Source of the DNA: Pseudomonas sp. 10S4
Lineage (GTDB): Bacteria; Pseudomonadota; Gammaproteobacteria; Pseudomonadales; Pseudomonadaceae
Direction: 5' to 3'
NCBI RefSeq assembly: GCF_034344865.1
Contig: NZ_CP133774.1
Coordinates: 5,208,001-5,272,000, forward strand
DNA length: 64,000 nt
Under the pieces are notes generated by a model. It saw nothing but the letters and a program-made list of their open reading frames with translations, did not search any database and was not told where the DNA came from. Shown here piece after piece: positions 38,913-52,475 of the stretch. Both the position numbers and the translations under genes were made by a program. Numbering within the stretch: the first letter of the stretch is position 1; the number at the start of each line of letters is the position of its first letter.

Positions 38913-39938
38913 TCACTGAAAATCCCCAAGCGTCGACCCACGCACCACCAACCGCGCCGCAAAATCCACCGTCCGCACCGGCCCGATATCCCCGCGCAAC
39001 CGTTTGAGCAAACACTCAAACGCACTCGCACCAATCTCCGCCGTCGGCTGGGCGAGGGCGGTAATCCCGCTGCCTACCAACGGATACCAATCCAGATCAT
39101 CGAGGGCAATCAGCCCGACATCCTCGAACAACTTGCAGCCCAATTCACGCAACGCATGGGTACTGGCCAGCGCCGCAATCCCGTTGGCACAGAACAGCGC
39201 TTTCGGCCCCGGGCCGGGTGCATCGAGGAAGGTTTTCAAATGTGAGGTCAGGTCGCTGCCGGTTTCGACCACAGCCCCTTGTAGCGCAGGGCGTTGCTGA
39301 ATCTGCGCCTTGAAACTGCTCACCCGCTCGATCCGCGAACTGGTCCCGTCAAACGGTTCAGTCACCAGCAACACATCGCGGTAACCGCGCTCTTCAAGGT
39401 GGGCGAGGGCCAGTTCAACGGCGGCCGGATTATCCAGCCCGACCAGGTCGCTCTCGAGTTGCTCAACCTTGCGGTCTACCAATACCAGCGGCATTTCCCG
39501 ATGCAGTTCGCGCAGTTCATCGCGGTGATGACCCAAGGTGTTCACGATCAAGCCTTCGATGTTGTACGAGCGCAGCAACGCCAAGTGCTGACGTTCCTGC
39601 TCGTCATCGCGATCGGTGTTGCACACCACCAAGCTGTAGCCGTGCTGGCGGCAAGCGGTTTCCACGCCATGCATCACGGCAATCGAATAAGGGTTACGGA
39701 TATCGGCCACCAGCATGCCAATCAGGCGAGTTCGCCCGCGTTTAAGGCCACGGGCCATTTGGTTGGGGCGATAGCCCAACTCGCTGATGGCTTGCTCGAT
39801 GCGCAAGGCAGTGGCATCGGAGAGCAGCGCGCGGTCGTCGCCGATAAAGCGCGACACGCTGGCCTTGGACACGCCCGCGTGTTCGGCGACATCGAGCATG
39901 GTGACGCGGCTGCGCTGGGCGGCGGAGAAATCGTTCAC
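38913..39938 (-). CDS. ptxS: LacI-family repressor PtxS
   Basis: A 341-residue repressor: LacI-type HTH VTMLDVAEHAGVSKASVSRF and hinge helix YRPNQMARGLKRGRTRLIGM, then a periplasmic-binding-protein-like effector domain (MLVADIRNPYSIAVMHGVET). PtxS represses itself and the kgu operon, and 2-ketogluconate releases it. Two identical operators flank the gene, which supports the assignment. The kguE-K-T-D genes lie downstream in the same orientation. Confidence 0.93.
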   Translation of the reverse strand: MNDFSAAQRSRVTMLDVAEHAGVSKASVSRFIGDDRALLSDATALRIEQAISELGYRPNQMARGLKRGRTRLIGMLVADIRNPYSIAVMHGVETACRQHGYSLVVCNTDRDDEQERQHLALLRSYNIEGLIVNTLGHHRDELRELHREMPLVLVDRKVEQLESDLVGLDNPAAVELALAHLEERGYRDVLLVTEPFDGTSSRIERVSSFKAQIQQRPALQGAVVETGSDLTSHLKTFLDAPGPGPKALFCANGIAALASTHALRELGCKLFEDVGLIALDDLDWYPLVGSGITALAQPTAEIGASAFECLLKRLRGDIGPVRTVDFAARLVVRGSTLGDFQ

Positions 39939-39989
39939 GGCTGGGCGACCTTGTTATTGGAATTATTTGAGTTCCAGTTCGTATTCGTC

Positions 39990-40003
39990 TGAAACCGGTT
40001 TCA
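39990..40003. promoter_or_regulatory. PtxS operator upstream of ptxS
   Basis: TGAAACCGGTTTCA, 52 nt upstream of the ptxS start: autoregulatory site identical to the kguE operator. Confidence 0.92.
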
Positions 40004-40090
40004 GGAAACCTCACAAGGTAGGTCTTCGTCAAGCTTGCTTTGGTGCAGATTCACTCAAAAACTGGACGACAGCCGACAAGCGGTCGGGAA

Positions 40091-40110
40091 ACCTGTCAGA
40101 TCTGACAGTA
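40091..40110. promoter_or_regulatory. LuxR-type (lux/las) box, left end of the surface island
   Basis: ACCTGTCAGATCTGACAGTA. The inner 16 nt are a perfect palindrome and match every defined base of the first 18 positions of the lux-box consensus ACCTGT-NN-GATC-NN-ACAGGT. A TCTAAT (-10-like) hexamer at 40132-40137 puts the box centre near -43, the class II position for LuxR activators. It ends exactly 100 nt before the ATG at 40210. Confidence 0.75.
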
Positions 40111-40209
40111 GGCAGCATCTGCGTTTGACCGTCTAATTTCCTACCAGAGGAACAGGAAAACAAAGGCTTTGGAGATACGCACAAAAGCCGATATGACGGA
40201 GTGACGCAG

Positions 40210-41082
40210 ATGGTTTCTAAAGAAGATTCAAGTAGCGCTGCAACGTTATCCGGCGGCGGTGTGCTGGCATTGCCGCTGACGATTGATGGCGTCAATCCTG
40301 GCGATCCGCTGCAGCTGATTCCTCCGGGAGCCTCCACCACCGGCGCGATACTGAGGATTCCACCCTGGACGCCCTCTACCATCGCTGGACGCAACGATCT
40401 GTTGGAAATATGGGTACTTGAGCCAGGTGCCACGGCGGAAGTCCTGTTCTACAGCAATCCGTTTCCTGTACCGATCGCGTTTCCCTCATCGATTACATTG
40501 CCTGCTCAGTACTTGCAGCGTGCCGGTCAAATCCAATTGAAATATCGCGTGACGCTGGGTGATAACGGGAATGAGGACTCATCCGTGCCACAACGGTTCA
40601 CCGTCAGCCCTCCCGTTGTCGTCAATCTGCTGGCACCGAAATTTACAGTGGAGTCGTCCCATAACGGTGAATTCGAAATTCGGGGATACCTGAACTGCAG
40701 AGTTGTGCCCCGGATATGGGTAAGGGTGTTGTTGCATATACCCGCTCAACCCGGACGCTTTAACGTCAATGACGAATTCATTCTGGACTGGGAGGGTTTC
40801 AGGAGCCTGAACGGTACCGAACCCATTCCGGGCACAGCGGGGCGGTTCTCCAAGTTTTTGACCCAGGCAGAGGCCAACTCTCCAACCGGGTTCATTTTTG
40901 TGGTGGACAGCGACAAGTATATTCAATACATCGAACCCATTACATTCGGTTCGGCGCAGGCCTTTTATACCTTGTACCGAAACGGCGTCCCATTGGGTCG
41001 CTCACGAACAGATACCGTGAAAATCGATCGTAAAGTATCGGGGGAGGGGTTGTGTGATGCGAACTTTGATCCTTATCCCTGA
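40210..41082 (+). CDS. beta-rich protein of unknown function, first gene of the lux-box island
   Basis: A 290-residue protein. The ATG at 40210 is preferred because GGAG lies 8 nt upstream; a GTG nine bases earlier is the alternative. No signal peptide, TM helix or known catalytic motif. The sequence alternates hydrophobic and polar residues with many Pro/Gly turns (for example LQLIPPGASTTGAILRIPPW), suggesting two immunoglobulin-like beta-sandwich modules (~1-140 and ~145-290). Similar modules occur in the next gene. Codon use is less GC-biased than in neighbours, which suggests acquisition. I do not recognise a family. Confidence 0.7.
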   Translation: MVSKEDSSSAATLSGGGVLALPLTIDGVNPGDPLQLIPPGASTTGAILRIPPWTPSTIAGRNDLLEIWVLEPGATAEVLFYSNPFPVPIAFPSSITLPAQYLQRAGQIQLKYRVTLGDNGNEDSSVPQRFTVSPPVVVNLLAPKFTVESSHNGEFEIRGYLNCRVVPRIWVRVLLHIPAQPGRFNVNDEFILDWEGFRSLNGTEPIPGTAGRFSKFLTQAEANSPTGFIFVVDSDKYIQYIEPITFGSAQAFYTLYRNGVPLGRSRTDTVKIDRKVSGEGLCDANFDPYP

Positions 41083-41288
41083 ACAACTGGGCAACGCAAG
41101 TAAATAGACAAACAAGTACGCGTGAGCATTTTATACCTTACAAACCTTGCACGACATCCATGCCGAATGTCGTACAGGGTGCTGAATAACTATTCAGCTC
41201 TCGGAGTATGCAGTTTGAAGTCGCGTAGTTCTCCATGAAGTAAGCGCATGTACAGATCGGCAATGAACTCACCGATGGAGAAACTCAA
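41083..41288. other. intergenic region with two hairpins between the two beta-rich genes
   Basis: ACGACAT at 41151-41157 pairs with ATGTCGT at 41167-41173, and GCTGAATA-AC-TATTCAGC forms a near-continuous palindrome at 41181-41198. Neither is followed by a T-tract. No gene is seen. A GGAG site precedes the next ATG. Confidence 0.5.
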
Positions 41289-43427
41289 ATGAATCAGAAA
41301 GTGAACGAAGTACTCGCGGAACAACCGATAGTTATAGATAATTTGGCGGACGGCCGTCTGACGTACAAACAATTAAGAGTTGATGGCACCATAGAAGTCG
41401 AACTGTCTAAGGTCGCAGATCCGGATTCAACGCGTGTAGAACTTCAAATGTTTCCACCTGGCGGGTCTCCCATCCCTGATTCTCCTGTTTTCGTCGTTGC
41501 CAGTAAGGATAAGGCAACCGAACCAGGAGGCGTGTGGACCTTTCCACTCTCGTTCACAGTCGATGTCAGCAGGCTCGCCGATCGGTTCGACGCAGCGGGT
41601 AACTATGTGGGATGGGAACTGGCGTTTGTTGTTTATGAACCCAGTGGCAACCCCGACACATCAAACCCACACACCTTGATTTTTGTCGATCTGACAGCCC
41701 CCTGGCAGCGGCAACCGGGAGCTGGCAATCGCACGGGAACCCGGCCGCCAGCCCTGCTACCCAGCACACCGCCAGTGCCAAGCGTCATTAATGACGCTTG
41801 GCTTAATGACCCTGCCAACGCTGGTGGCTTGAACCTGGTCATCTCCACGACCTATACAAAGTTTGAAGCGGGCCTGGATCAAGCGACGGTCTATATTTCC
41901 GAACAGACGAATTATCCGGCCATGCGCGCCGAAACACCGGCATATGCAGGACCATTAAATGCCGGTGGTGTTGTCAACGTGCCCTTGACCTTCCTCAGGG
42001 GGTTGAGCGATGGCCGTTTTTATTATGCCTACGACCTCCAGGATGCTCCTGGCAATATCAGTAATAACTCTCAGATCAACCTACTGTTTCAAGTGGTCAG
42101 AGCACCAGCTCCCCTACTCAACGTACCAAGGATTCCGGTGACCGGGGCAGATGGTCGTACTCCCATTACGCTCTCGACCGTAGGCGCTCCGCCGCCCTCG
42201 CGTGCCGTGATTGAAATTGATATTCATAGCACCTGGTTGCCAGGTGATCGCATCATCCCCTACATGCAGGCCGTGGGCACCACCAACCTGGTGCAGGTGC
42301 CGGAGCAACCGGTTCCCGCCCCCGGCGGCGCGACCGTGCTGCGCTTCGTGCTGGACTACGACAAAATGAATGAGGTCTTCGACGGCGACGATGGCCAGGA
42401 CGAAGTTGAGTTCGAATACTGGTATGAGCTGGAGCGCAGCTCTATTCCAACCAATCCTACTTCAAGGTCGGTATTCGGACTGGTTGACTTCTCTTACGCC
42501 GGCCCCGAACAGCCAAACTTGCCGGACCTCGAAAACCCGAACATACCGGTGGTTATCGTGCAGGGGGCAGGTATTCCAACCCCCGCTCCGAATACGCTGG
42601 GGCCAGATCAGGCAGGCCTGGATGCAGAAATGCAGGCACCTATCAGGACCAGCCCAGCCAGGCCGGTTACCGGTCGCGAAATCTATACGTTTTATTATCA
42701 AGGCAAGGAAGTGGGCGTTCGCAGCCCAACGGCCGGACAAACCACCCCTGTGACCTGTCCGCTGCCATGGCAGACCATCCGCGATGAGGGCAATGGCACA
42801 ATCGCGAACGGTAATCCGAGAAAGGCCTATGTGACCATCGAGTTGCCGGGGGGCAACAACGTGATGCGGCAGACGCCGGATACCGATGTGAGCGTCACGG
42901 CGATCATCATCAACTTGCCCGTACCACAGGTGATTGTTTCGGCGTATTTACTGAATATTCCTGGCCAGGCGCCTATCTTCGTACCTGAACGGGTCGCTAC
43001 TCTGGTCAACTGTCCATCCCTGGATCATCCGACTGTGCCAGGTGGATCAGCTCCACCCTATCTACCGCGCCGACTGCGTATCAGAATCCGCCGCGACCCC
43101 AATATTCCGACTGGGACACCAGTGGCGGTGACGTTTGAAGGGCGCACGACAGATACCCCGGCAGGTGCGCTGATTCCTGGCACCGAAATGAGCGATACAC
43201 AGAACATGCCGCCGACGGGAGATCTGGAAATATTTCTCACGGATTATGCCCGGATCCGACTCATCCAGTTGCCGCCTACGGGGACCCCTCCACAGCGTCC
43301 AGCCAATCGATACGCACGTATCGCGTATACGGCGAATGGTATTACGGCAGTCGTCACCCTGCCGGTCTCGCTGTTGAATGCCAGCCTGGTGTATTGCGAA
43401 CAGGAGCGTCCGGAACCATCGCCTTGA
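41289..43427 (+). CDS. large multi-module beta-rich protein of unknown function
   Basis: A 712-residue protein starting at the ATG at 41289 with GGAG 9 nt upstream. It appears to be a string of about four or five 130-150-residue beta-sandwich modules separated by Pro-rich linkers (for example RPPALLPSTPPVPSV and NIPVVIVQGAGIPTPAPNT). Each module ends in a beta-hairpin-like stretch such as YVGWELAFVVYEPSG, GRFYYAYDLQDAPGN or EVEFEYWYELERSS. No N-terminal signal peptide is visible, so secretion would need a non-Sec route. No enzymatic motif is seen. It lies between the shorter relative and the autotransporter. Confidence 0.7.
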   Translation: MNQKVNEVLAEQPIVIDNLADGRLTYKQLRVDGTIEVELSKVADPDSTRVELQMFPPGGSPIPDSPVFVVASKDKATEPGGVWTFPLSFTVDVSRLADRFDAAGNYVGWELAFVVYEPSGNPDTSNPHTLIFVDLTAPWQRQPGAGNRTGTRPPALLPSTPPVPSVINDAWLNDPANAGGLNLVISTTYTKFEAGLDQATVYISEQTNYPAMRAETPAYAGPLNAGGVVNVPLTFLRGLSDGRFYYAYDLQDAPGNISNNSQINLLFQVVRAPAPLLNVPRIPVTGADGRTPITLSTVGAPPPSRAVIEIDIHSTWLPGDRIIPYMQAVGTTNLVQVPEQPVPAPGGATVLRFVLDYDKMNEVFDGDDGQDEVEFEYWYELERSSIPTNPTSRSVFGLVDFSYAGPEQPNLPDLENPNIPVVIVQGAGIPTPAPNTLGPDQAGLDAEMQAPIRTSPARPVTGREIYTFYYQGKEVGVRSPTAGQTTPVTCPLPWQTIRDEGNGTIANGNPRKAYVTIELPGGNNVMRQTPDTDVSVTAIIINLPVPQVIVSAYLLNIPGQAPIFVPERVATLVNCPSLDHPTVPGGSAPPYLPRRLRIRIRRDPNIPTGTPVAVTFEGRTTDTPAGALIPGTEMSDTQNMPPTGDLEIFLTDYARIRLIQLPPTGTPPQRPANRYARIAYTANGITAVVTLPVSLLNASLVYCEQERPEPSP

Positions 43428-43451
43428 TTTGACTGGAAACCTGATTTCCTG

Positions 43452-43485
43452 CCAATGGGAACAATGTGTTTGTTGTTCCCATTGG
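43452..43485 (+). terminator. probable terminator of the 712-residue gene
   Basis: CCAATGGGAACAA / TTGTTCCCATTGG, a perfect 13-bp stem with an 8-nt loop, 25 nt after the stop. Only a weak T-rich tail follows. Confidence 0.65.
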
Positions 43486-43679
43486 ATGGAAATTTTACTT
43501 CGGCATACAAATTAGTATTTCTTAAACAACTCTCGGAAAAGTCGTACGCAATAAGGGATTTGTCCTACAGCGTATGAAGGAGGCAGGTCTTAGTCTGGCG
43601 GCCGTTCACAAGCCCGGCTCATTCACTAATCGTTTCGGAGGGTTCGCCCATCCTAGACGCATTCGCGCAGGAAGTTACT

Positions 43680-46226
43680 ATGTCGTCGAAGTTAATCGCA
43701 GTTCCCAAGATAAGAGGCGATGCACTTGCTGCGTCCATTACCCTACTTCTTGGTACATCCTTTGCCCAAGCGGCTAATTTGCCGCCTAATACCTCGCAGA
43801 CAATTGATGGCTCCACTGCGGTGGAGACCTGGCAACTGCAAAATAATGCCTCTCTGACGGGCACCAACGCCCAAACATTGAATATCGCCGCCGCGGCCGG
43901 CAGCACCGTCAACCTGACCAGCTCGACAGTCAACTCTGCGTCGGGACAAGGTATTTCCTTGAGCAGTGCTACGGCATTGCTAAACAACACCACCGTGATC
44001 AGCAACGTCGGCATCGGTATATCGGGCCTGCGAAATGTACAAAGCCCTGGTGGCTCGCGGATCAGCTTGAGCAACAACAGTACGGCGCGCGGGTTGCTTG
44101 GAGGCATTGCAGGCAACCGTTTCAGTGATATCTCCGTTCAAAACTCCACAGTACAGGGCACGGGCGCGACGAGTTTCGGCGTGCGCTTGCTTGAAGGCTC
44201 CCTGACTGCCAGCGGCAGCATCATCACCGGTGGGCAGAACGGTATTATCGTTGGCAACGACACGGTTGCCGCCAGCGTGTCACCGAGCACCATCATCTTG
44301 GACAGCACTCGAGTGGAAGGCACGACAGGTTCGAGCATAGTAATCGGCAACGCTCCCCAAACCACTCAGGCCCGCGCCAATATCGAGGTTCGCAACGGCT
44401 CGACACTGGTCAGCGGCAACAACACAGCGCTGCAAGTCAGCAACGGTGCTTCGGCGACGCTGCTGGTCGATAACAGTGCCTTGACGGGCAATGTCGTGGT
44501 CGATCAGGGCAGTTCCGGGACCGTGACCTTGCAAAATAACGCATCGCTTACCGGTGACATGCAAAACGTCAACACCGCCACGCTCAACAATCAGGCACAG
44601 ATGCGCGGCAATGTGCTGGGGGCGGACAGTGTCGTGATCGACAATCGCTCGACACTGACGGGCAACCTGCAAGACATTGGCAGTACGACGCTGAACAATC
44701 AGGCACAGATGCGCGGCAATGTACTGGGGGCGGACAGTGTTTTGATCGACAACGGCTCGACGCTGACGGGTAACCTGCAAGACATTGGCGCCGCAACGCT
44801 GAACCATCTGAGCAACATGACCGGTAACGTCACAGCGGCGTCGGGCTCGGCATCCAGCCTGACGCTGGACAATGGTGCGAGTTTGACCGGCCAGGTCAAT
44901 AACGTTGCCAACTTTTCCATCAGCAACCAGGCTCTGTGGCAAATGACTGACAGCCAGTCGGTCAATAACCTCACGCTTAATGGCGGCCGAGTGCGGTTTG
45001 GCAGCAATCAGGAATATTTTCAGTTAGACGTCGCGAACCTGTCTGGCAATGGCACGTTCGAGATGAACACCGACTTCAAACAACGCATCACGGATCTGTT
45101 GAACGTCACGGGCAGCGCATCAGGCAATCATCAGTTGCTGGTGGCGAGCAGTGGTGCCGATCCGGTGAGCGATGCGCCGATTAAAGTCGTACAAACCACG
45201 GGTGGTAGTGCCCATTTTGGGCTGGTTAACGGCCCGGTCGATGTCGGCGCGTTCACCTATGGCCTGGTCAAGGAGGGTGAGGATTGGTATTTGCAGCCCG
45301 ACAGGGAGGTTGTCAGCACCCCGACCCGCTCGGTTTTGGCGATATTTGGCACAGCCCCCACCGTGATCTACGGCGAAATGGCCACGTTGAACAACCGTAT
45401 GGGTGACCTGCGGGTCAACGGCGGGCAGACCGGTGGTTGGGTTCGCAGTTTTGGTAGTCGCTACAGCATCGGCGGTAACGCCTATGGTGGTGGTTATAGT
45501 CAAACCCAGTCCGGCATTTCGATGGGGGTTGATACGCCGGTGCAGATCGCTGGCGAGCGGGTGTTGCTCGGCGCATTTGCCGGCTATAGCAAATCCAATC
45601 TGGATTTGAGCCGTGGCAGCTCTGGGGAAATTGGCAGCACATCGCTCGGTATGTATGGCACCTGGCTGGGTGACAGTGGTTACTACCTGGATACCGTGGC
45701 CAAGCTCAACCATTTCCGCAACGATGCGAAGGTCACGATGAGCGACGGCACCCAAACCAAGGGGAATTACAACAACCTGGGCGCCAGTGCGTCGGTGGAA
45801 TTCGGTAAACACATTGAGCTGGATTCGGATTACTACATTGAGCCATTCACCCAATGGCAGGTGGCCGCGGTGCAAGGCAAGGACTACAGCCTCGACAATG
45901 GTCTGCGTGCGGATGCCAATACCACACGGTCCATGCTCGGGAAAGCGGGCATGAATGCGGGACGTAGTATGACCCTGGCCAATGGAAGCAAACTTCAACC
46001 TCATCTCACTGCCGCCGTAGTACGTGAGTTTGCCAGAAATAACGAAGTTCGCGTCAACGACAACAAGTTCAATAATGACTTGTCCGGCAATCGTCTTGAA
46101 CTGGGCGCGGGTGTTTCTTGGACGCTGAACGACCGCTGGCAACTCCACGCAGAACTGGATACCAGCAAGGGCGATAGTGTGACAAAAGACTATGGCGTGA
46201 ACATTGGGGCTCATATACGATTTTAA
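43680..46226 (+). CDS. pertactin-type autotransporter
   Basis: An 848-residue type Va secreted protein. The signal peptide (~1-32) ends SFAQA-AN. The passenger (~33-450) is Ser/Thr/Asn-rich and repetitive (ASLTG, STLTGNLQDIG), typical of a beta-helix. A pertactin-like autochaperone segment follows (~455-540, with GNGTFEMNTDFKQRITDLLN and EGEDWYLQP). The C-terminal beta-barrel (~580-848) starts GGWVRSFGSRYSIGGNAYGG and ends in the BAM signal Phe (NIGAHIRF). No protease or lipase catalytic motif is seen, so adhesion or self-association is the likely role. It ends with its own terminator. Confidence 0.9.
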   Translation: MSSKLIAVPKIRGDALAASITLLLGTSFAQAANLPPNTSQTIDGSTAVETWQLQNNASLTGTNAQTLNIAAAAGSTVNLTSSTVNSASGQGISLSSATALLNNTTVISNVGIGISGLRNVQSPGGSRISLSNNSTARGLLGGIAGNRFSDISVQNSTVQGTGATSFGVRLLEGSLTASGSIITGGQNGIIVGNDTVAASVSPSTIILDSTRVEGTTGSSIVIGNAPQTTQARANIEVRNGSTLVSGNNTALQVSNGASATLLVDNSALTGNVVVDQGSSGTVTLQNNASLTGDMQNVNTATLNNQAQMRGNVLGADSVVIDNRSTLTGNLQDIGSTTLNNQAQMRGNVLGADSVLIDNGSTLTGNLQDIGAATLNHLSNMTGNVTAASGSASSLTLDNGASLTGQVNNVANFSISNQALWQMTDSQSVNNLTLNGGRVRFGSNQEYFQLDVANLSGNGTFEMNTDFKQRITDLLNVTGSASGNHQLLVASSGADPVSDAPIKVVQTTGGSAHFGLVNGPVDVGAFTYGLVKEGEDWYLQPDREVVSTPTRSVLAIFGTAPTVIYGEMATLNNRMGDLRVNGGQTGGWVRSFGSRYSIGGNAYGGGYSQTQSGISMGVDTPVQIAGERVLLGAFAGYSKSNLDLSRGSSGEIGSTSLGMYGTWLGDSGYYLDTVAKLNHFRNDAKVTMSDGTQTKGNYNNLGASASVEFGKHIELDSDYYIEPFTQWQVAAVQGKDYSLDNGLRADANTTRSMLGKAGMNAGRSMTLANGSKLQPHLTAAVVREFARNNEVRVNDNKFNNDLSGNRLELGAGVSWTLNDRWQLHAELDTSKGDSVTKDYGVNIGAHIRF
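44580..44795 (+). repeat. 108-bp tandem repeat inside the autotransporter passenger
   Basis: Two nearly identical 108-bp units (44580-44687 and 44688-44795) encode 36-residue repeats of the form TLNNQAQMRGNVLGADSV + IDNxSTLTGNLQDIG. A third, degenerate copy begins at 44796 (TLNHLSNMTGNV). High nucleotide identity implies recent duplication or slippage. Confidence 0.9.
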
Positions 46227-46292
46227 GAGGTGCCCAGTCCTGAAAATAGCTCAGAAGGTGTAAACCTTATTCAGGACGAGACAGAGGCCATC

Positions 46293-46324
46293 AAAAAGGG
46301 AAGCATTAGCTTCCCTTTTTTATT
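46293..46324. terminator. bidirectional terminator between the autotransporter and the minus-strand island gene
   Basis: AAAAAGGGAAGC-ATTA-GCTTCCCTTTTTT, with A and T tracts on either side. Confidence 0.92.
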
Positions 46325-46335
46325 TCGGAATCTAC

Positions 46336-46775
46336 TCAACGCACCGGTAATTTGACTTTGAAATGTCCTTTCAGAACAAAGGTTTTATCCTCCTGCCCAC
46401 GAATTTCAACAGCGACATTGAAGCTTCCACCCACTTTACCGTCCAGTTGTGGATCCAAAGTAACAGTGCCTGAGATCGCTTCAGAGATAGCACCATCAAC
46501 TTTAATGCTCAACGAAACGTCAGACTCGCCGCCCACCGGGTAATTGGCTGAAGCAAGTGAGTCAGGAAGGGAAATAGTAATTTCCCTGACGGCAATAGTG
46601 ACTCCCTGATGAGTTAGCCTAACAGGACGCTCTACGGCTACCAGTTGTGTGAGGTGGATTTCCTCACGGCTGATAAAAAAGCCGACGTCGCAATGAACTC
46701 CGGAAATTCATGAGTGCTGGAGGTACGAAAGTGTTCGCCGGGGGCGAAGCCAAGGGTTTTCACGATTAGATTCAT
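46336..46775 (-). pseudogene. small beta-rich hypothetical gene at the right end of the island, frameshifted
   Basis: The ATG at 46775 has a GGAG upstream and reads MNLIVKTLGFAPGEHFRTSS for ~45 codons before a stop. The larger open frame (46336-46707) has no usable start and encodes VGFFISREEIHLTQLVAVER through DKTFVLKGHFKVKLPVR. Joining them needs one missing base near 46680-46710 and gives ~146 aa of alternating beta-strand pattern. No known family. It faces the autotransporter, with a LuxR-type box 100 nt upstream of its start. Confidence 0.55.
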
Positions 46776-46870
46776 GGGGAGGCTCTCCGATACTTTAAGT
46801 AGGGTATCCAAAGGCCATATACGTTGACCTTAATTCTGGATGAACAATAAAAGCGCCAATCAGGGTGGCT

Positions 46871-46898
46871 TGTAAACTGTAAGATCTAACAGTTTACA
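46871..46898. promoter_or_regulatory. LuxR-type (lux/las) box, right end of the surface island
   Basis: The core AACTGTAAGATCTAACAGTT (46875-46894) lies in a 28-bp palindrome with one mismatched pair (flanks TGTA/TACA). It carries CTGT-NN-GATC-NN-ACAG like the box at 40091. Its near edge is exactly 100 nt from the start of the minus-strand gene at 46775. Confidence 0.72.
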
Positions 46899-46954
46899 GT
46901 CGGTGCGAAGTGTGCTGGCAAGAGCGTCGAGTTATTGAAGTAACTGGCGCCGGA

Positions 46955-47591
46955 TTATGGCGTTGACTTATAGAGTGATAATTGCGGTAGCCATACAGAA
47001 ACGAGCAACAATAAACCCATGTTGTAGTTGAGAATTCTCTGTGCATTGGGGGCTTTCAACAGAACTCGGGAGCGGGCTCCCAGTACCGCCCAAGTGGAAA
47101 GGCAGGGCAAGGAGACCAAAAAGAAGGCGAGCGACAGTATCATCACATGCATCCATTTTTCCTGACCTTGGGCGGCAAACACACTGATCACCGCCAACGC
47201 CATCATCCAGCTCTTGGGGTTGATCAGTTGCAAACTGGCGGCGCCCTTGAAACCCAGTCGTTGTGATTGAGGAGGGCGGGACGATGGTTCATGGGCATTG
47301 ACCGGCGCCCAAAAGATCTGCCAAGCCAAATAACTCAACCACGCGACGCCTGCCCACTGCATTGCGGTTTGCAGGTGGGGGTGGGCACTGAGAACGTGGC
47401 CAAGACCGCCGCCCACGGCCAACACGAGCAGCGCCGCACCGGTGGCAGGCCCCAAAAACGATCGGTAGCGCAGCCTTGAAACCATATCTGGCGCTATTGC
47501 TCAGCACCAGGATATTGGTCGGGCCGGGGGTGATGGACGCGACGAAAGCGAATGCCAAAAACGGCAACAAGCTGGAAAAAGTGGAAATCAT
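46955..47591 (-). pseudogene. LysE-family amino-acid exporter, frameshifted
   Basis: N-terminal MISTFSSLLPFLAFAFVASI and TPGPTNILVLSNSARYGFKA are classic LysE/RhtB. Near 47441-47446 one extra base shifts the frame. Removing it continues as TGAALLVLAVGGGLGHVLSA and INPKSWMMALAVISVFAAQG to the C-terminus (~211 aa). Six TM helices are expected. The start at 47591 has GGAG 9 nt upstream. It lies 49 nt downstream of an AraC-family gene in the same direction. Confidence 0.82.
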
Positions 47592-47640
47592 AATCATGGA
47601 CTCCTTGGACAGTCAGGAGCCGATCTTCACAAAGGCCAGG

Positions 47641-49377: not shown

Positions 49378-52300
49378 TTAGGTGTCTTTATGGCGCTTGC
49401 CCACCAGTTTCATCACCACCACAAAAAACACGGGTACAAACAGCACCGCCAATGTAGCGGTAATCATCCCGCCGATCACTCCGGTGCCAATCGCTTGCTG
49501 GCTCGCGGAACTGGCCCCGGTGGCAATTGCCAGCGGCACCACGCCGAGGATGAACGCCAGTGAGGTCATCACAATCGGCCGCAACCGCAACCGCGCGGCT
49601 TGCAGCGTGGCGTCGATCAGGTCGTGGCCTTCGTCGTACAGGCTCTTGGCGAATTCGATGATCAGGATCGCGTTCTTCGCCGACAGGCCGATGATGGTAA
49701 TCAGCCCGACCTTGAAGAACACATCGTTCGGCATCCCGCGTAACGTCACCGCCAGTACCGCACCGAGCACGCCGAGCGGCACCACCAGCAACACCGACGT
49801 CGGAATCGACCAGCTCTCATACAGCGCCGCCAGGCACAGGAACACGATCAGCAGCGACAAACCGAGCAGAATCGGCGCCTGACTGCCGGACAGACGTTCC
49901 TGCAACGACAGGCCGGTCCATTCCTGGCCCAACCCCGCCGGGCCTTGCGCCACCAGCCGTTCGATTTCCGCCATGGCTTCACCGGTGCTGTGGCCGGGTG
50001 CCGGCTCACCGGAAATACTGATGGCCGGGTAACCGTTGTAACGGGTCAGTTGCGCCGGGCCCTGTGTCCATTTGGCCTGGACGAAAGCCGACAGCGGCAC
50101 CATTTTGCCGTCGTTGTTGCGCACGTGAATCTTCAGCAGGTCCGCGACCTGGCTGCGCTGATCACCTTCGGCCTGAACCACAACGCGCTGCATCCGTCCC
50201 TGATTGGGGAAGTCATTGATGTAGGCCGAACCGACCGCCGTGGACAGCACGCTGCCAATATCCGCAAAGGAAACCCCAAGCGCGTTCGCCTGCTTGCGGT
50301 CGACTTCCAGTTGCACCTGCGGCGCTTCGGCCAGGGCGCTTTCGCGCACGTTGGCCAGGATCGGACTTTTTCGGCCGCTGCCAGTAACTGACTGCGAGCC
50401 TGCATCAACGTGGCATGGCCGAGGCCGCCGCGATCCTGCAGGCGGAACTCGAAACCACTGGAGGTGCCGAGGCCGTTCACGGGTGGCGGCAGCACGGCAA
50501 AGGCCACGGCGTCCTTGATCTGGCTCAGGGCGATGTTGGCCCGGTCGGCAATCGAACTGGCCGAATCATTGCTGCTGCGCTGCGACCAGTCCTTCAACGT
50601 GGTAAACGCCAACGCCGCGTTCTGGCCGCTGCCGGAGAAGCTGAAACCGAGAATCACCGTGCTGTCGCCCACACCGGGTTCCGTGGCGTTATGCGCTTCG
50701 ATCTGCTCCACCACCTTCACCGTACGATTTTTGCTTGCGCCTGGCGGCAGTTGAATATCGGTGATGGTGTAACCCTGGTCTTCCACCGGCAGGAACGAGG
50801 AGGGCAGGCGACTGAAGCAAACGCCCAGACCAATCAGCAGCACGCCGTAGATCAACAGATAACGCCCCGTGCGCTTCAACGCATAGGCGACCCAACCTTG
50901 ATAACGCTCGGTCAGTTGTTCGAAGCGGCGGTTGAACCAGCCGAAGAAACCGCCCTTGGCATGGTGTTCACCCTTGGCAATCGGTTTGAGCAGGGTGGCG
51001 CAGAGTGCCGGGGTCAAGGTCAGGGCGAGGAACGCCGAGAACAGGATCGAGGTGGCCATCGACAGTGAGAACTGCTGGTAGATCACACCCACCGAACCCG
51101 GCATGAACGCCATCGGGATGAATACCGCCACCAGCACCAGAGTGATGCCGACGATGGCGCCGGTGATCTGCTTCATGGCCTTGCGCGTCGCCTCCTTGGG
51201 CGACAGGCCCTCGGTGACCATGATCCGCTCGACGTTCTCCACCACCACAATGGCGTCGTCCACCAGAATGCCGATGGCCAGTACCATGCCAAACATGGTC
51301 AGCACGTTGATCGAAAAACCCAGCGCGAGCATGGTCGCAAAGGTGCCCATCAACGCCACCGGCACCACCAGGGTCGGGATCAGCGTGTAACGGATGTTTT
51401 GCAAGAACAGGAACATCACCGCAAACACCAGCAACATTGCTTCGCCAAGGGTGTAGACCACTTTGGTGATCGAGACCTTGACGAACGGCGAGGTGTCGTA
51501 CGGGATCTTGTATTCCACGCCTGCCGGGAAGTAGCGCGACAGTTCGTCCATTTTCGCCCGCACCAGCGTCGCGGTGCTCAGGGCGTTGGCGCCCGGTGCC
51601 AGCTGCACGCTGACGGCGGTCGACGGTTTGCCATTCAGGCGAGTGGAGAACTGATATTCCTGACTGCCGATTTCGACCCGTGCCACGTCACCGATGCGCA
51701 CTGTGGAACCATCGGGGTTGGCCTTGAGCACGATGTCGGCGAACTCTTCAGGCGTCGACAACTGGCCTTTGACCAGGATGGTCGCGGTGATTTCCTGAGT
51801 GGTGCGGGCCGGCAGGTCGCCGATGCTGCCGGCCGACACCTGGGCGTTTTGCGCAACGACAGCGGCATTCACATCGGCGGGCGTGAGGTTGAAACCGATC
51901 AGCTTTTGCGGGTCGATCCAGATCCGCATGGCACGCTCGGCACCATACAATTGCGCCTTGCCGACGCCGTCCAGACGCTTGATCTCGTTCATCACGTTGC
52001 GCGCCAGATAATCGCTGAGCGCCACGTCGTTGAGCTTGCCGTCATTGGAGGTCAGGGTGATCAGCAGCAGGAAACCGGCGGAGACTTTCTCCACTTGCAG
52101 CCCTTGTTGCGTGACCGCTTGCGGCAGGCGCGATTCGACGATTTTCAGACGATTTTGCACATCCACTTGAGCCATCTCCGGGTCGGTGCCCGGTTGGAAC
52201 GTTGCGGTGATGGTGGCGCTGCCAAGGCTGCTCTGGGACTCGAAATACAGCAGGTGATCAGCGCCGTTGAGTTCTTCTTCGATCAGGCTGACCACGCTCT

Positions 52301-52475
52301 CGTCCACGGTTTGCGCCGAAGCGCCCGGGTACACGGCGTAGATTTCAATTTGCGGCGGCGCGACCACCGGGTACTGCGCCACCGGCAACTGCGGAATGGC
52401 CAGGGCGCCGGCCAGCAGGATGAACAACGCGAGCACCCAGGCAAACACAGGGCGGTCGATAAAGAACTGCGGCAT
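49378..52475 (-). pseudogene. RND efflux permease (AcrB/MexB-like), frameshifted at a homopolymer
   Basis: The first frame gives ~700 residues from MPQFFIDRPVFAWVLALFIL, with the proton-relay motif GILVDDAIVVVENVERI and normal porter domains. The second frame runs from NVRESALAEAPQVQLEVDRK to the C-terminus. The break is at a run of five T (plus strand 50367-50371); one more base restores AAEKSPILANVRES and a 1032-residue HAE1 permease. With the adaptor and divergent two-component system it forms a drug/solvent-type efflux locus. No outer-membrane channel gene is adjacent. Confidence 0.87.

Follow-up and report, generated by a model that had tools for sequence, protein, structure and literature searches.

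Lux-type boxes around a Pseudomonas autotransporter island as candidate operators of the fpr-rlmG LuxR solo

Two lux-type palindromes bracket a small gene island, encoding an autotransporter among other proteins, in a 64-kb stretch of Pseudomonas sp. 10S4 (positions 5208001-5272000 of the 7.27-Mb single-contig genome; hereafter the window). We find that they belong to a family of boxes that recurs across this genome and many others of the genus, at a fixed distance from a -10 element and together with the helix-turn-helix (HTH) of one candidate regulator. On this comparative evidence we propose, with a probability of roughly 0.78, that the palindromes are operators of the 'subgroup A' LuxR solo encoded beside fpr and rlmG. 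LuxR-solo control of the island, one of two options put forward in a sequence-only reading of the window, appears well supported because the boxes are genome-wide, take a class II position, are conserved in orthologous islands and co-occur with this one solo.

Boxes in the window, the genome and the genus

Both palindromes lie where the sequence-only reading had placed them and, as it had stated, nothing else in the window carries such a box: they are the sole matches to the core pattern CTGTNANNNNTNACAG, and a site of the form CTGTNAGATCTNACAG is expected, from base composition, 0.00013 times per 64 kb. They show the 18-20-bp dyad and the CTG-N10-CAG core of a lux box. The promoter features are the following:

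40073-40086, plus strand: conserved element of CCGAYNARYGGT form, preceding the left box and seen in all 11 left promoters aligned
40091-40110, plus strand: left lux-type box ACCTGTCAGATCTGACAGTA, kept in 10 of 10 orthologous islands
40132-40137, plus strand: -10 element TCTAAT of the left promoter, at offset 40-45 from the core, as in all 11 left promoters and the wider promoter family
46844-46849, minus strand: -10-like TATTGT of the right promoter, its distance to the box exceeding that of the left counterpart by 4 bp
46871-46898, minus strand: extended palindrome TGTAAACTGT-N8-ACAGTTTACA enclosing the right lux-type box AACTGTAAGATCTAACAGTT (20-mer, 46875-46894), the box kept in 10 of 10 islands

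The identical box-to-start distances that had first drawn attention are real, with a gap of 99 nt between 20-mer and outermost start on both sides (starts at 40210, plus strand, and 46775, minus strand), but they look accidental, because in the relatives' loci L310 and L313 the called starts are 73 nt away from the 16-mer core on the left side and 95 nt on the right, and because the window's two promoters place their -10-like elements differently. We therefore rejected equal spacing as a functional feature. The companion observation, TCTAAT at 40132 with the box near -43, is borne out by an offset common to the whole promoter family.

Absent or drifted palindromes in orthologous islands had been named as evidence that would speak against LuxR-type control; instead, both boxes are kept in identical arrangement in all ten distinct islands. 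These were drawn from seven genomes and six records, three contigs coinciding: Pseudomonas mandelii OWC5 (G135), Pseudomonas paraglycinae (G375), Irchel s3h14 (G337), GM79, Pseudomonas brassicacearum 38D7, ANT_J12, G207, G199, G355 and G273. All 11 left promoters, the window included, carry TCTAAT, TTTAAT or CTTAAT at offset 40, and the full extended palindrome surrounds the right box in 7 of 11 sequences (window counted), with the right -10-like element at 44-49 in the two counted, the window and L333. A broader search with the 290-residue protein of the island matched 159 of 398 genomes; among the 29 best loci outside the own genome, 25 have a mismatch-free core box near the gene start and one (G046) a box with one mismatch, the remaining three being partial C-terminal matches whose gene start falls beyond the locus.

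A whole-genome scan gave 19 CTGTNANNNNTNACAG sites against none for the reversed pattern, and 24 distinct places matching CTGTNAGATCTNACAG with at most two mismatches against three. The putative regulon thus reaches far beyond the island, and an explanation confined to the window was discarded. Thirteen of the 19 core sites, 18 of which entered the count, stand 28-115 nt before a predicted start (both window sites included, the right one preceding a broken gene). Behind the boxes of this genome are Tc-like genes, namely VRP1 (Tc A-like, via a gene of 107 codons), SpvB (Tc B-like) and an RHS/TccC-like gene, the TccC label being given by eye, as well as genes for Ig-like proteins, a response regulator with a GerE domain, an ABC transporter, thioredoxin-like and DUF5122 proteins and, via an open reading frame of 83 codons, an acyl carrier protein.

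Of 149 Pseudomonas genomes, 64 contain the strict box CTGTNAGWWCTNACAG, with at most 15 copies apiece (against 10 with a single copy of the reversed control), and 110 contain the relaxed box CTGTYANNNNTRACAG, with at most 37 copies (against 0-3 control matches per genome); our statistics ignore kinship among genomes. For a subset we fetched the loci surrounding listed sites, so that the choice of loci follows the boxes, and their genes were called by a hexamer gene finder, which makes starts and gaps approximate. The 104 strict-box rows reduce to 94 distinct boxes, 93 of them outside predicted genes in loci that are 82% coding. The nearest called start lies 50-134 nt away for 62 boxes, less than 50 nt for 2, 135-399 nt for 16 and at least 400 nt for 10, and is absent for 4. 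Six genomes with close solos had been thought box-free, which we rejected: they lack the strict form only and hold 13 (G135), 6 (G131), 7 (G002), 5 (G107), 4 (G129) and 10 (G038) relaxed boxes.

Alignment of 63 promoters on the box, de-duplicated by identical sequence or by the 25 N-terminal residues of the protein encoded downstream (some are still related) and restricted to boxes with a called start within 135 nt, gave ACCTGTCAGATCTGACAG followed by (G/T)(A/T)G, with no separate -35 element and an A-rich patch upstream. TATAAT is matched at at least four positions at offset 40 in 20 of the 63, against a mean of 1.09 at other offsets, and the last T of the -10 element (position 45) is kept in 84%. 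Because the -10 element stands at a fixed offset, the box centre would fall at about -43 if transcription begins 7 nt after it. Class II LuxR-type activators bind near -42/-43. Judged from the -10 offset alone, the boxes thus lie near -42 and overlap the -35 position, with the right promoter of the window off by 4 bp.

Counted by rows, with site repeats included and domains assigned on representatives only, the largest downstream clusters are Ig/RCC1-like large proteins (22), Tc B-like (8), DUF5122 (6) and the window protein's family (6), followed by TccC-like, Tc A-like, autotransporter and LacI-type clusters of four each; beta-propeller proteins also occur among the genes behind boxes. Relaxed boxes are found, too, in pairs with a spacing of about 85-130 bp, in opposite or equal orientation and frequently having the asymmetric centre CTGTCATTTCTGACAG (for example G044 C25:587886 + 587996 and C28:451769 + 451855; G037 C31:14451 + 14581), which are perhaps divergent or double promoters.

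The fpr-rlmG LuxR solo as candidate regulator

The genome encodes two Autoind_bind proteins, neither in the window, in line with the earlier remark that no luxI or luxR gene is present there. One of them, the fpr-rlmG solo (genome 834323-835036, 237 residues), lies far outside and combines Autoind_bind (PF03472) with GerE (PF00196). In 61 of 61 fetched loci fpr and rlmG adjoin it, the neighbours being 80-95% identical (outside the own genome) and the solo 34-81%, and a further 20 of 20 loci hold an fpr-rlmG LuxR form. The residues of the acyl-homoserine lactone (AHL) pocket, in TraR numbering, are present among 61 solos as W57 in 60, Y61 in 59, and D70 and W85 in all 61. Domains, context and pocket argue for placing the solo in subgroup A, just as dyad and position argue for calling the boxes lux-type.

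Box-rich genomes carry this protein or part of it. Among the 81 genomes with at least four relaxed boxes, 70 match the solo at E<=1e-48, and the other 11 have, all at fpr-rlmG, a diverged full solo (G051, G116), a partial one (G126) or an HTH-only form (G018, G020, G022, G050, G056, G068, G085, G115); synteny was verified for 70 of the 81, that is, for all except G004, G030, G031, G037, G052, G067, G088, G097, G098, G122 and G136. None of the 29 genomes without a solo match better than 1e-10 reaches four boxes (these were scored by match only, their fpr-rlmG loci lying outside the fetched set), and box number follows the strength of the solo match with a Spearman coefficient of 0.76. The recognition helix, readable in 59 solos, has E at residue 205 in 43, with medians of 6 strict and 17 relaxed boxes; for the 16 solos without E the medians are 1 and 12.5. 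Since residue 205 splits the strict medians more than the relaxed ones, it is the box centre, more than box number, that shifts with the helix; G135, with A at 205, has CTGTCAAATATGACAG at the island's left site.

In 11 genomes (G018, G020, G022, G026, G050, G056, G066, G068, G085, G094, G115; loci L244-L247, L250, L264-L273 and L275), which form one clade on a tree of fpr and rlmG, the locus matches only the C-terminal part of the solo, that is, the HTH, in some with a few linker residues. Six of them (G018, G026, G050, G056, G094, G115) have an ATG start and 77-78 codons behind a GGAGG- or GGAG-containing stretch, and the other five show an open frame of 85-131 codons only. Eight of the 11 retain 4-12 relaxed boxes, as expected if the HTH is the box-reading part. 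In G018, G068 and G085, called genes follow some of these boxes at 27-155 nt, and inspection by eye puts Ig-like and RHS-like genes among them; one box of G018 lies inside a gene, and two loci of this set have no called gene.

We propose that a solo dimer would bind AHL, probably made by other bacteria, and occupy the 20-bp dyad, with its centre some 43 bp before the transcription start, where it would replace the -35 element, recruit RNA polymerase and activate transcription in class II manner; its targets would be Tc-toxin-like genes, Ig-like proteins, the response regulator and the island's two convergent units. The comparison shows the boxes, how many there are, where they stand in promoters, how far they are conserved and that they co-occur with the HTH of the solo; binding, activation rather than repression, and the ligand are what we infer. 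Because luxI was not found in this genome by a search that yields one in 31 of 149 genomes, so that no AHL synthase for a complete LuxI/LuxR circuit was found here, overheard AHLs are a likelier cue than an own signal, and the quorum-sensing option raised beside LuxR-solo control is the weaker one. As luxI does occur in some box-rich genomes (G044, G053, G070, G141), some strains could respond to their own AHL.

A rather unlikely variant is that the solo represses these promoters, or uses the box without ligand. It would agree with the retention of boxes by HTH-only forms and with PplR, a solo said to share the fpr-rlmG-type context and to bind several AHLs, for which effects independent of AHLs are reported in the available text of PMC11543582 (PubMed Central identifier); however, deletion of pplR changed 84 genes there, 79 of them downwards, which fits activation, and the class II position of the box, with no separate -35, and the conserved pocket residues likewise favour a ligand-responsive activator.

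Several observations weigh against the solo as owner of the boxes. Some genomes match the solo and have fewer than four boxes, namely G007 and G089 (none), G106 (three) and 23 of the 25 genomes in the 1e-30 to 1e-48 class, and 1-2 boxes are all that is found in G094, G066 and G026, whose solo is HTH-only. Damaged solos stand beside boxes, with an in-frame TGA in G074 (L084, 33 relaxed boxes) and G090 (L117, 12) and a gene in two pieces in G088 (8). Five core sites of our own genome (413847, 690937, 3335117, 5200108 and 3895325) have no start within 115 nt, the last being 243 nt from one and overlapping the 3' end of another gene; with 232341, the site outside the count, six have no near start shown. 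The genes reported as changed in the pplR mutant are, in the text available, not the box-linked families, and the words 'insecticidal' and 'Rhs' are absent from PMC11543582. The 12 low-box genomes with a full solo, other than G086 and G106, form one clade on the fpr and rlmG tree (87 genomes) and the HTH-only genomes a second, which leaves few independent evolutionary events.

These few events would also suit an improbable alternative, in which another LuxR/NarL-type regulator owns the boxes and the solo co-occurs by shared ancestry. Candidates would be a GerE-only protein (our survey covered Autoind_bind proteins) or the response regulator with a box in its own promoter at genome position 6810650, and a GerE-domain response regulator does stand behind a box in this genome as well as in L156 and L171. 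Yet the solo or its HTH is present in all 81 genomes with at least four relaxed boxes, the HTH-only clade keeps its boxes, and differences in the solo's helix go along with differences in the box centre. The second Autoind_bind protein of this genome, whose reading frame is broken and whose close homologues occur in few genomes, was rejected as the regulator for both reasons. The outer CTGT and ACAG would fit an SOS box, CTGT-N8-ACAG, but the inner bases are CAGWWCTG, not A/T-rich as in the LexA consensus, and the genes behind the boxes are not DNA-repair genes, which makes LexA operators very improbable. Still less credence is due to chance matches, given the expectation per window, or to operators of the LacI-type regulator whose gene adjoins the left box: the boxes are kept in all ten islands, in nine of which a LacI-type gene stands beside the left box, whereas none was found there in G273, and a separate palindrome lies nearer the LacI-type gene. 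Inner bases, gene content, conservation and expectation thus led us to reject the LexA, LacI and chance readings. That separate palindrome, CTGAAACCGGTTTCAG (window 39989-40004, between the LacI-type gene and the left box), is present in 12 of the 29 non-own loci checked and is probably the LacI-type regulator's own operator.

Genes of the island

Between the boxes, the window holds four genes:

40210-41082, plus strand: 290-residue protein with tandem FnIII/Ig-like domains in its predicted fold; translation could also begin at an in-frame GTG, 40201
41289-43427, plus strand: 712-residue protein of no recognised family, with relatives 51-56% identical in 7 of 7 islands
43680-46226, plus strand: 848-residue autotransporter with pertactin-like and beta-barrel domains, with relatives 64-68% identical in 7 of 7 islands
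46338-46775, minus strand: right-hand gene, convergent with the island and in two frames here; open (144-156 residues) in 7 of 10 orthologous islands

The description of this locus as a surface-protein island is borne out for the autotransporter only; the 290- and 712-residue proteins have no family match above the cut-off and, by eye, no signal peptide. NCBIfam gave no match for these two or for the right-hand protein. The fold of the 290-residue protein is predicted with confidence (mean pLDDT 88.3), and the biofilm protein RbmA tops its PDB list by E-value, with TM-scores of at most 0.36 among the matches listed; structure comparison of the model speaks for the domain type, tandem FnIII/Ig-like, alone.

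The two transcription units running inwards from the boxes, to which the sequence-only reading had assigned common control, are indeed convergent, but the right-hand gene is broken in this assembly, with 45 codons and a stop followed by the remainder in another frame. In the islands where it is not open, the gene finder gave only a 60-residue piece for G207 and nothing for G199 or ANT_J12. Its leader (about 46765-46850, minus strand) is a well-conserved, hairpin-capable sequence in 10 aligned sequences, in which one pair only is changed on both sides, and Rfam gave no match over 39500-47300 up to an E-value of 1. Frame-split genes occur at 46338-46775, 46955-47597 and 49378-52475 of the window and elsewhere at L007:7409-10428 and L013:7150-7865, a set made up of the right-hand gene, an RhtB-like transporter, an RND pump subunit, an Ig-like protein and the second LuxR. 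The first three of these are each one uninterrupted frame in relatives, and the splits may be assembly errors or real decay, either of which fits the data.

Known systems and implications

The Vibrio fischeri lux box is a 20-bp dyad, ACCTGT-N8-ACAGGT, centred near -42. The boxes described here are alike in dyad length and class II position and differ in their inner bases, in their many unlinked operators and in the lack of a luxI found alongside. SdiA of enteric bacteria, the solo's best NCBIfam match (98.7 bits, below the 350-bit cut-off), is, in the source text available, likewise an AHL eavesdropper without luxI, but it differs in genus, genomic place and targets.

Closer relatives come from Pseudomonas itself. 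Subgroup A solos are placed in a ferredoxin-NADP reductase/23S rRNA methyltransferase context by Bez et al. 2021 (PMC8546723), in the available text of which the fpr-linked solo is found in almost all fluorescent Pseudomonas species surveyed, and neither a target promoter nor an AHL effect was found for Ppu16R. PpoR of Pseudomonas putida binds 3-oxo-C6-homoserine lactone, according to the part available of PMC2703642, and is placed in subgroup C in PMC8546723 and in the first group in PMC11543582, as far as these texts go. Together with Ppu16R and the PplR of Pseudomonas plecoglossicida, it shares with our solo the Autoind_bind and GerE domains, the fpr/methyltransferase context given for the subgroup and the AHL-pocket residues; in the text available, no binding site or direct target is established for any of the three, PplR and PpoR having RNA-seq or microarray lists only.

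Six box sequences were searched for in papers of the open PMC library and none was found, nor did that library, among the matches listed, yield anything on this regulon as a link between Tc toxins and a LuxR solo, or a report of box or regulon, including in the available text of PMC10134790 and PMC7683790. In PMC5006985, on Tc clusters of Pseudomonas fluorescens strains, the terms LuxR, regulator, promoter, palindrom and quorum do not occur. LuxR solos and lux boxes are known, as is this solo family; what is new is the putative wide accessory regulon and the sensor-less clade.

The broadest proposition, to which we give even odds, is that a core-genome solo commands a large and fast-turning-over arsenal of Tc-toxin-like, FnIII/Ig-like and autotransporter proteins in fluorescent pseudomonads, with accessory loci joining through a ready-made class II lux box, and that one clade has lost the receptor's ligand-binding domain, leaving a 77-78-residue HTH-only protein and a regulon without an AHL sensor. 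The operator, promoter geometry and gene list make the function of the subgroup A solo directly testable and offer a way into the regulation of many large proteins that are so far uncharacterised. They suggest that genes of insect-toxin-like and adhesin-like type may be turned on or off by signals overheard from bacteria, and that a LuxR protein can retain its regulon after losing the sensor domain.

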